Shown here in pieces: positions 17,257 to 19,741 of a DNA stretch of 64,000 nt. Below the pieces are notes generated by a model. That model searched no databases. It saw only the letters and a program-made list of their open reading frames with translations, and was not told the DNA's origin. The stretch is from an uncultured Eubacteriales bacterium (GTDB lineage: Bacteria; Bacillota; Clostridia; Oscillospirales; Oscillospiraceae): contig ONEB01000007.1 of the NCBI GenBank assembly GCA_900316745.1, positions 1 to 64,000 on the forward strand. Direction: 5' to 3'. Numbering within the stretch: the first letter of the stretch is position 1; every line of letters begins with the position of its first letter. A program made the translations under genes and the position numbers.

Positions 17257-18531
17257 TCAAATCGCATCAAGCGCCTGACGGATGTCCTCTACAAGATCCT
17301 CCGCACTCTCCAGCCCACAGCTGATGCGCACGAGACCTGCCGGGACGCCGGCGGCGGCAAGCTGCTCGTCTGTCATCTGGCGGTGCGTGCTCGTCGCGGG
17401 GTTCAGGCAGCAGGTGCGCGCATCCGCTACATGGGTCTCGATGGCAGCGACCTTCAGCGCCTTCATGAATGCCTCTGCTGCCGCACGGCCGCCCTTGAGT
17501 TCAAAGCTCACGACGCCGCAGGACCCGTTCGGCAGATACTTCTGCGCGCGGTCGTAATACTTGTCGCCCGGAAGGCTCGGATAGCTCACATGCGCGACCT
17601 TTTCCCGTTTCGCAAGGAAGGACGCAACAGCGAGACCGTTTTCACAGTGACGCGGCATCCGCACATGCAAGCTCTCCAGACCGAGGTTCAGGTAGAACGC
17701 GTTCTGCGGGGACTGGATGGAACCGAGATCCCGCATGAGCTGAGAGGTACACTTCGTGATGAACGCCCCTTCCCTGCCGAACTTCTCTGCGTAAACGATG
17801 CCGTGATAGCTCTCGTCGGGCGTGCAGAGCCCCGGAAACTTCTCCGCGTGCGCCATCCAGTCGAAGCGGCCGCTGTCCACGATCGCGCCGCCCACTGCGA
17901 CGCCGTGACCGTCCATATATTTTGTAGTCGAATGCGTGACGATGTCCGCGCCCCATTCAAACGGACGGCAGTTGATCGGTGTGGCAAAAGTGTTGTCCAC
18001 AATCAGCGGGACGCCATGCGCGTGAGCAGCGACGGCAAAGCGCTCGATATCAAGCACCGTCAGCGCGGGGTTTGCGATAGTCTCGCCGAAAACAGCTTTT
18101 GTATTCTCTCGAAACGCCGCTTCCAGCTCTTCATCCGTACAGTCGGGAGAGACGAACGTTGCGCGGATCCCCATCTTCGCCATAGTCGTCTGGATGAGGT
18201 TGAACGTGCCGCCGTAGATGCTCGACGACGCCACGATGTGGTCGCCGCAGGAGCAGAGGTTGAACAGCGCAAAGAAGTTTGCAGCCTGTCCGGAACTCGT
18301 GAGCATGGCGGCCGTGCCGCCCTCCAGCGCACAGATCTTCGCCGCAACAGCGTCGTTCGTCGGGTTCTGCAGACGGCTGTAGAAATACCCGCTCGCCTCA
18401 AGATCGAAGAGCTTGCCCATGTCCTCGCTCGTCTCATAGCGGAACGTGGTGGACTGGATGATCGGAAGCTGACGCGGCTCGCCGTTGCCTGGGGTATAGC
18501 CGCCCTGGATACAGATGGTCTCGGGTTTCAT
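17257..18531 (-). CDS. metY: O-acetylhomoserine aminocarboxypropyltransferase (sulfhydrylase)
   Basis: A 424-residue PLP enzyme of the Cys/Met metabolism family. It makes homocysteine from O-acetylhomoserine and sulfide. The PLP lysine is in THSTTKYMDGHG near residue 204, with the upstream VDNTFATPINCRPFEWGAD and the C-terminal NPATSTHRQM signature. Length and motifs fit MetY rather than MetB/MetC. It lies 31 bases after metA, with AGGAGG upstream, so both are made from one transcript. The pairing with an E111-type MetA is consistent with the O-acetyl route. Confidence 0.93.
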   Translation of the reverse strand: MKPETICIQGGYTPGNGEPRQLPIIQSTTFRYETSEDMGKLFDLEASGYFYSRLQNPTNDAVAAKICALEGGTAAMLTSSGQAANFFALFNLCSCGDHIVASSSIYGGTFNLIQTTMAKMGIRATFVSPDCTDEELEAAFRENTKAVFGETIANPALTVLDIERFAVAAHAHGVPLIVDNTFATPINCRPFEWGADIVTHSTTKYMDGHGVAVGGAIVDSGRFDWMAHAEKFPGLCTPDESYHGIVYAEKFGREGAFITKCTSQLMRDLGSIQSPQNAFYLNLGLESLHVRMPRHCENGLAVASFLAKREKVAHVSYPSLPGDKYYDRAQKYLPNGSCGVVSFELKGGRAAAEAFMKALKVAAIETHVADARTCCLNPATSTHRQMTDEQLAAAGVPAGLVRISCGLESAEDLVEDIRQALDAI

Positions 18532-18562: not shown

Positions 18563-19489
18563 TCATGCAATGGGCTCGATCGCCTGAATGTCATAGGGCG
18601 ATTCCTGATAGACGAAATAGTTCAGCCAGTTGGAAAACAGCAGATTTGCACTGGAGCGCCAGCGGTTGACGGGCTCACGGCTGTCATCGTCGTTCGGGTA
18701 GTAGTTTTCCGGAACGTGGATGGGTTTTCCTGCTCGTTTGTCACGCAGATACTCACTCTCCAGCGTTCGGGTGTCATACTCCGAATGGCCGGTGATAAAG
18801 ATCTGGCGCCCGCCGTCCGTGCTCGCGGCGTAGATGCCAGCGCGGTCGCTCCGGGCGAGAATCTTCAGTTTCGGCTCCGCTTCGATCCCTGCGGGGTCGG
18901 ACTCGGTGTGGCGCGAGTGCGGCACGAGGAACGTATCGTCAAACCCGCGGAACAGGATCGAGCCTGGATGCGTGACGCGGTGCTCGAAGACGCCGAAGAG
19001 CTTTTCCGGCATCTGGTGTTTCGGGATGCCATAGTGATAATACAGCCCCGCCTGCGCACCGTAGCAGATGTGCAGTGTGCTCTGGACATGGGACTTGCTC
19101 CACTCCATGATCCGGCAGAGCTCCTCCCAATAATCCGCCTGCTCAAAGGGCAGATGCTCGATCGGCGCGCCGGTGATGATGAGTCCGTCGAAATTGCGGT
19201 GCTTGATCTGCTCGAACGTCTTGTAAAACGTAAGCATATGCTCCTGCGAGGTGTTCTTGGAGGTATGACTGTCAAACGCCATCAGCTCCACCTCCACCTG
19301 GATCGGCGTATTGCCGAGCAGACGCACGAACTGCGTTTCGGTGGCGATCTTTGTCGGCATCAGATTCAGGAGCAGGATGTGCAGCATTCGGATATCCTGG
19401 CTGAGCGCACGCGGCGTGTGATAATAGAAGATGTTTTCTCGCTGCAGGGTTCCGGCTGCTGGGAGCTCCGGCGGGATGATGATAGGCAT
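18563..19489 (-). CDS. metA: Homoserine O-acetyltransferase (MetA type)
   Basis: A 308-residue enzyme that activates homoserine for methionine synthesis. The catalytic Cys is C142 ([15 protein letters not shown]), and the His-Glu pair is H235/E237 (ITGHSEYD). Residue 111 is Glu ([12 protein letters not shown]). In this family Glu111 is linked with acetyl-CoA use and Gly111 with succinyl-CoA use, so this is most likely an acetyltransferase despite its MetA ancestry. That matches the O-acetylhomoserine enzyme MetY encoded next. It is preceded by a leader peptide and terminator (19510-19741). Confidence 0.93.
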
Positions 19490-19509: not shown

Positions 19510-19547
19510 AATAATAAAAACGGGAGGCTCCGAAGAGCCTCCCGTTT
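19510..19547 (-). terminator. Attenuator terminator before metA
   Basis: On the minus strand a perfect 13-base-pair stem (AAACGGGAGGCTC with GAGCCTCCCGTTT, loop TTCG) is followed by TTTTTATTATT. It stands between the leader peptide stop and the metA start, so it must be read through to express metA-metY. The heptamer CTCCGAA inside the leader frame (19573-19579) is a perfect complement of the loop and right arm (19528-19534). Confidence 0.88.
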
Positions 19548-19562
19548 GAATTGACCTGTTGA

Positions 19563-19667
19563 TCACAAATTGTTCGGAGACACATCGGAGTTTCGGGCAC
19601 GACGAACCATGCACATACCCATGGGCATGCACATCATCATGTTCATCATAGACTGAAGCTGATACAC
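19563..19667 (-). CDS. Met/Cys-rich leader peptide of metA-metY
   Basis: A 34-codon frame starting GTG, with GGAGG seven bases upstream. Its peptide begins MYQLQS, then has nine Met and two Cys in the 14 codons 7-20 (MMNMMMCMPMGMCM), then VRRARNSDVSPNNL. It lies between a consensus promoter and an intrinsic terminator, directly before metA. This is the layout of an amino-acid attenuator (as in trp, his, leu operons), with methionine as the sensed amino acid. No such peptide is known to me as an independent protein; its role is inferred from position and composition. Confidence 0.8.
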   Translation of the reverse strand: MYQLQSMMNMMMCMPMGMCMVRRARNSDVSPNNL

Positions 19668-19712
19668 GATGGTTCCTCCAAAAAACAAATTGAATTCCTA
19701 TTGCTTTGACGT

Positions 19713-19741
19713 AGTATAACGCAATGAATCGAGATTGTCAA
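19713..19741 (-). promoter_or_regulatory. Promoter of the met leader-metA-metY operon
   Basis: Perfect TTGACA, 17 bases, TATACT on the minus strand. The -35 box overlaps the tag stop codon. The start should be near 19706, about 40 bases before the leader peptide. Confidence 0.88.

Follow-up and report, generated by a model that had tools for sequence, protein, structure and literature searches.

The metA-metY genes of the window (the whole 64-kb stretch of DNA analysed here) are preceded by what is very probably, judging from sequence comparison, a transcription attenuator of the ribosome-mediated kind, with charged elongator tRNA-Met as its signal and an antiterminator directed at the terminator apex; possibly it senses tRNA-Cys as well. 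The design stands before methionine genes in ten or more genera. Since these include methionine-making and methionine-import genes, it looks like a switch that is turned on when methionine is short. A preliminary description of the locus had proposed a Met leader-peptide attenuator with the leader end as antiterminator, together with a protector pairing; comparison across genera strengthens the former and not the latter.

The leader upstream of metA-metY

All the elements lie on the minus strand, and those of the preliminary description (promoter, GGAGG, Met/Cys-rich frame, 13-bp terminator and metA) were found where it had placed them. The promoter, TTGACA-17-TATACT (19713..19741), is made of TTGACA (19741-19736), a 17-nt spacer and TATACT (19718-19713). 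It is followed by a Shine-Dalgarno sequence, GGAGG (19675..19679), a similar match being present in 32 of the 35 leaders of the data set described below, and by a Met/Cys-rich frame of 34 codons (19563..19667), which starts with GTG at 19667, stops with TGA (19565-19563), has related frames elsewhere and would encode the peptide MYQLQSMMNMMMCMPMGMCMVRRARNSDVSPNNL. Codons 7-20, MMNMMMCMPMGMCM (19608..19649), comprise nine Met and two Cys; they are the likely sensing (stall) codons, on the basis that M14, M18 and C19 are invariant, and M12 nearly so, among 17 aligned leaders. Codons 30-32 hold the putative antiterminator segment CTCCGAA (19573..19579), whose support as a class comes from shuffle and swap tests, and TTCGGAG (19534-19528) is its perfect complement. 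Also in the window leader, GTTCG (19607-19603) is able to pair with CGAAC. The intrinsic terminator (19518..19547) has a 13-bp stem and a UUCG loop, and reads AAACGGGAGGCTC-TTCG-GAGCCTCCCGTTT (19547-19518), with a T-rich stretch after the stem; its apex, the presumed antiterminator target (19527..19538), is defined as the loop plus the top 4 nt of each arm. The first gene thought to be controlled is metA (18563..19489), for homoserine O-acetyltransferase (NCBIfam NF047918 above cut-off, Pfam HTS), and the second, 31 nt further on, is metY (17257..18531), for O-acetylhomoserine sulfhydrylase (NCBIfam TIGR01326 above cut-off).

A side feature was seen by eye directly after the Met run: at 19613-19596 of the window and at equivalent places, many leaders read TGC ATG NNN NNN YGY GCN, and the resulting UGCAUG-N6-YGYGC could form a short hairpin. 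The Arg and Cys codons in this region interchange through C-T changes that preserve the hairpin pairing.

Chance levels, folding and known riboswitches

The Met run of the window leader is not a chance occurrence and lies far above background. When all six frames of the window are considered, the best stretch of 14 codons contains 9 Met and the runner-up 5. In a background of 494 295 bases taken from the metA regions of relatives (loci L004-L081, six frames, both strands), no stretch outside leaders has at least 6 Met per 14 codons and 7 stretches have 5. The 201-nt leader plus terminator folds 4.4 s.d. better than shuffles. Taken by itself, the CTCCGAA:TTCGGAG helix is equalled in 7% of shuffled window leaders, i.e. 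it is not significant in the window alone; the support for it is provided by the relatives.

The earlier impression that no S-box or T-box is visible was checked with covariance models: neither the S-box (SAM-I riboswitch, RF00162) nor the T-box (RF00230) matches the leader. At gathering score, Rfam finds two tRNAs only over the whole window and no riboswitch over the leader, for which all matches are sub-gathering (best E 0.38). The sole S-box of the source genome precedes metK (L001:1501-1595, G000:C26; metK by Pfam), so SAM and Met seem to be sensed there by different devices. The same genome has four T-box matches, two of them over the cut-off, whose downstream genes resemble, on inspection by eye, valS, a trpB-like gene, pheS and thrS. 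In 40 of the 110 metA loci scanned below (L002-L111), Rfam detects no S-box or T-box upstream of metA within the flank examined; the S-boxes of L011, L039 and L040 are downstream of metA. Other structured RNAs were encountered in these surroundings, namely THF riboswitches downstream of metA in two close relatives (L084:643-736 and L085:3476-3569) and raiA RNAs near metA in L023, L039 and L040.

Conservation among close relatives

The preliminary description had named loss of the frame or of its Met codons in close relatives, with the terminator kept, as an outcome that would refute it. Four of the five close metA relatives examined (L002, L083, L084 and L085) do not show such a loss: they keep the promoter, the Met-rich frame and the terminator before metA. 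L002 comes from a separate record (MetA identity 89%); the three others belong to genomes labelled as the source genus (G322, G379 and G289, respectively), and L084 and L003 apparently are one contig. The fifth relative, G079, also of the source genus, has before metA, as judged by eye, a degenerate frame in which internal Met number only four, and a T-run that is weak; before metN it has a strong leader. Among the eight other members of the genus that were sampled, G153 and G208 each have a metN leader in the absence of a metA match; for G252 and G353 no metA match and, at E ≤ 0.05, no leader was obtained. The source genome itself, with a completeness rated at 92.5%, contains one leader and no MetQ family match.

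Distribution of the leader

A first profile, built from six metA leaders and blind to terminators and neighbour genes, was run against 400 genomes of the source GTDB family, source genome included. It gave 15 matches at E ≤ 1e-3, five of which are training rows; the other ten all have a terminator and all lie before metN or metQ. With a second profile of 17 rows, many of them earlier matches, 26 matches at E ≤ 1e-3 were obtained in 385 family genomes (source genome included), and 26/26 are accompanied by a terminator and a Met or Cys gene: metA, metY, metN, metQ and, once, cysK. By genome labels these 26 leaders fall in ten genera, to which weaker matches add two (L170 and L174). As most genomes of the family sample are without a match, the leader is not universal in the family. 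Two leaders may occur in one genome, as in G325 (before metY and metN). Outside the family, a match at E ≤ 0.01 was found in 1 of 393 other genomes of the order sample; G695, from another family of the same order, has two leaders, before metY and before metN. The class sample likewise gave 1 of 390 genomes at E ≤ 0.01, a single weak match attributed to chance. Both the order and the class samples include some source-family genomes. Names under which the relatives are deposited include uncultured Clostridia, Ruminococcaceae and Oscillospiraceae.

Out of 30 loci of the six-row profile, 22 were examined, yielding 15 leaders and 7 loci that look like chance (L128, L129, L130, L132, L135, L139 and L140); L112-L115 are training rows, and L133 and L136-L138 were left out, as were six-row matches at E 0.038-0.5 without a locus, save places met again by the 17-row profile. 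Among the 39 matches of the latter, L169, L171 and L175 look like chance, those in G034 and G092 coincide with L128 and L129, and those in G129, G099, G171 and G102 (E 0.017-0.044) were left out of the examination. L145 is also a chance match. A scan of the surroundings of metA in 110 loci (L002-L111) retained frames with at least 5 Met, a Shine-Dalgarno sequence and a terminator. The nine lines that it produced all represent leaders (the window being L082, and the apparently single contig of L003 and L084 being among them), and it gave nothing in the remaining loci, with the limits that weaker leaders would escape such a scan and that the 1.5-kb flanks of L083-L111 may miss the start of the operon.

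The set of 35 leaders

A data set of 35 leaders, window included, was assembled and divided into 23 groups of close relatives; two of the leaders (L098 and L043) come from the Met-count scan, outside the profile search. The gene after the leader is metN in 14 cases, metQ in 8, metA in 7, metY in 5 and cysK in 1. This gene was checked by Pfam or NCBIfam for 28 of the 35; six metA assignments rest on the searches that fetched them and that of L118 on its first residues. For the import genes the best NCBIfam families are MetN and MetQ, with scores short of the curated cut-offs, and the Pfam domains NIL and NlpA pass theirs; the gene of L173 is cut and shows the ABC domain only. In the window and its 34 relatives the terminator lies between the leader frame and the first structural gene. 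A terminator score of 20 is reached automatically by 33 of the 35 leaders, as against 0 of 700 shuffled downstream stretches; the terminators of L116 and L134 were set by hand, and the T-run of L134 is weak. A sigma-70-type promoter scoring at least 9 within 80 nt upstream is present for 31 leaders, compared with 4.6% of mononucleotide-shuffled upstream sequences.

In eight leaders, a second small frame with a conserved motif occupies the interval between terminator and gene (L165, L167, L143 and L043, before metY; L116, L126, L170 and L172, before metQ). The motif is FRFGRM-like before metY, where it ends right after M in L165 and L167, and RMCPPDT-like before metQ; the DNA sequence CGAATG is common to both versions. 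It may encode another peptide with a regulatory or arrest function; inspection of the window by eye shows no counterpart.

The leaders encode mostly 26-44 amino acids (21 in L098), with 1-6 Cys each (6 in L127, a metN leader), except ahead of cysK (L131:1685-2614), where the same leader design carries a peptide with 7 Cys. Alone among the set, this cysK leader has a 13-nt match to its own left terminator arm. The composition of the peptides bears on another explanation, nascent-peptide arrest, in which Met, SAM or another sulfur metabolite would be the signal that makes the Met/Cys peptide, with its conserved tail, stall the ribosome, the terminator being controlled by this stall instead of by empty Met codons. 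It would account for the tail after the Met run, which in many rows is conserved beyond Met content (x-R/C-R/C-A). However, the tail residues swap among R, C, Q, H and S, and the tail is absent from L107, L134, L098 and L043. Furthermore, it is the cysK leader that is the richest in Cys, as codon sensing predicts, an argument that is weak because L127 comes so close. We therefore regard arrest by the peptide as rather improbable.

Pairing of the leader end with the terminator apex

Three leaders (L118, L119 and L122) repeat, by eye, the complementarity between leader end and terminator loop seen in the window. This was the source of the idea that the pairing is general, and all 35 leaders were then tested. 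A contiguous-helix score for the loop region gives a mean z of 0.75, with 6 leaders at p ≤ 0.05, and is weaker than a version based on duplex energy. For the latter, nine combinations of region and target were tried against dinucleotide shuffles: the last 40 nt of the frame, paired with the loop plus 4 nt on each side, have a group-mean z of 1.23 over shuffles (t 5.56, p 1.4e-5, 23 groups), and 12 of the 35 leaders reach p ≤ 0.05 singly. The spacer from stop codon to terminator shows no excess pairing with the apex and is slightly below shuffles (z -0.38, p 0.008).

The last result is of interest for an explanation that assigns the sensing to an RNA aptamer, riboswitch or protein-binding site of a kind not yet described, located in the leader, and that treats the frame as incidental. 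The stability of the leader RNA relative to shuffles would fit such an element, but the spacer does not pair as it might then be expected to, no Rfam family exceeds its gathering score in the leader, and the conserved feature is a frame of Met codons, which no aptamer needs. Such an element is thus extremely unlikely.

Returning to the pairing expected of a leader-peptide attenuator, terminators were swapped between groups. Leader ends bind their own apex with -10.96 kcal/mol, against -7.98 kcal/mol for cross combinations, and 0 of 20 000 permutations were as good. When a 20-nt segment is slid along the leader, the signal is strongest for the segment from -32 to -12, counted from the end of the stop codon (z -6.2; 0 of 10 000 permutations as good), its neighbours at 8-nt shifts having z -3.1 and -4.2, with |z| of 1.5 or less elsewhere. 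If the four groups that gave the idea are omitted, there are still 0 of 10 000 permutations as good (z -4.8; 26 leaders, 19 groups), and 65 ordinary gene-terminator pairs from loci L001-L081, used as a control, give no signal (z +1.0). Both halves of the apex contribute, the top of the left arm with the loop (z -4.4) and the loop with the top of the right arm (z -3.5), and no clear signal comes from the lower arms (left z -0.7, right z -1.5), which argues that the pairing is centred on the apex. The lower left arm was accordingly rejected as a trp-style antiterminator target.

The own partner is ranked fifth or better among 33-35 in 22 of the 35 leaders (4 of 33 for the window), and 20th or worse in six (L083, L117, L163, L164, L166 and L167). 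These predicted energies thus support, for the class and in most members, pairing between a leader end and the apex of its own terminator. As to the preliminary description, which had CTCCGAA pair with the loop and right arm of the terminator, the pairing itself stands as a class (the 0/10 000 permutations above), with the amendments that the signal also includes the top of the left arm and that six members lack it. Its other pairing, GTTCG with CGAAC as a protector, is not supported by the relatives: a swap test of the upstream part of the frame versus its last 40 nt gives z -0.8, and no protector (1:2) hairpin as in trp was detected by this test in the set of 35.

The divergence of the leader ends is also relevant to the idea that the frame encodes a functional Met/Cys-rich small protein, e.g. 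for metal binding, which is cotranscribed by chance, the terminator only tuning expression. The small size of most leaders and the conservation of the Met run would suit such a protein, yet in the C-terminal third the peptide sequence diverges whereas complementarity of the RNA to its own terminator apex persists. In addition, the frame is flanked by a promoter (31/35) upstream and by a terminator downstream, with a Met or Cys gene beyond it, and a Pfam search with the window peptide gives nothing at E ≤ 0.001. Taken together, this makes a small-protein function very unlikely.

A model for the switch

According to the attenuator reading, when Met-tRNA is short a ribosome would stall on the Met codons and leave the downstream segment free to pair with the apex of the emerging terminator; the terminator could then not close and metA-metY would be transcribed. 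When Met is ample, the ribosome would reach the stop codon and cover or disrupt the segment, in which case the terminator would form and transcription would end. The geometry is compatible with these steps. Measured from the last Met codon, the segment begins after a median of 17 nt (range -4 to 78), and a ribosome on that codon should leave it free. Its 3′ end lies a median of 14 nt (range 27 to 0) short of the end of the stop codon; given a ribosome footprint of the usual size, at least the 3′ part of the segment should be hidden once the stop codon is reached. With the same footprint, the segment of several leaders lies partly 5′ of the area expected to be covered, a point against the model.

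Predictions on nascent transcripts bear on the timing. With the loop and 5 nt of the right arm made, own partners are predicted to form 9.9 bp between leader and apex and swapped partners 4.6; at 8 nt the values fall to 6.4 and 1.9, and at 11 nt, where the terminator wins, to 1.9 and 0.6. Only 7 of the 35 leaders have at least 3 expected leader-apex pairs at equilibrium with 11 nt of the right arm, which suggests that the switch must act during transcription. Since no protector hairpin was found, an untranslated leader should read through. These elements could be combined into a wider proposal, that the family runs a methionine regulon on leader peptides, each, unlike trp, a two-state, single-helix apex switch thrown during terminator synthesis, without protector and ON when untranslated, with Met and Cys codons perhaps tuned to the gene, a part of the proposal that rests on one cysK leader. 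We advance it tentatively, giving it somewhat less than an even chance.

Comparison with known systems

The classical amino-acid leader-peptide attenuators are those of Proteobacteria, of the trp, his, leu, thr and phe type, for which a protector (1:2) hairpin is typical, without being universal. The leader described here resembles them by its short frame rich in codons for the end product, by a terminator before the structural genes and by an alternative pairing of the leader end. It differs in its amino acid, which is Met (with Cys), in an antiterminator directed at the apex, with no signal for the lower arms, and in that no protector hairpin was detected. If apex-directed antitermination is a compact design rule, it could be used to find attenuators without alignment.

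For methionine, a classic end product, control in Firmicutes is known to involve S-boxes, T-boxes and DNA-binding regulators, and S-box (SAM-I) or Met T-box control of met genes acts in many cases through transcription termination. The regulated pathway is the same as for the Met leader, but these are RNA-only sensors of SAM or tRNA, and neither matches the leader. In the literature searched, most subscription papers being outside it, no description of a Met leader-peptide attenuator was found; such an attenuator, if true, adds another solution to methionine control in Firmicutes. Its recurrence before biosynthesis and import genes would define a methionine regulon in little-studied, mostly uncultured Clostridia.

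Cysteine-responsive attenuation is known in mycobacteria. In Actinobacteria, as far as the accessible part of the report goes, leader frames with Cys codons occur upstream of cys operons with no terminator hairpin found, and methionine operons showed no conserved RNA structure (PMC1262725). These leaders likewise place a run of sulfur-amino-acid codons before sulfur genes, though, according to the same part of the report, the codons are for Cys instead of Met and there is no terminator. The available portion of another study describes a SAM-I riboswitch with the additional ability to bind uncharged initiator tRNA (PMC7270179). A parallel is provided by the histidine leader peptides of Firmicutes, which, from the sections available of two reports, precede hisS/hisZ and his operons and replace T-boxes in some lineages (PMC2965389, PMC9413887). 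As far as those sections describe them, they and the Met leader would both work by leader-peptide attenuation, with different amino acids and different operons.
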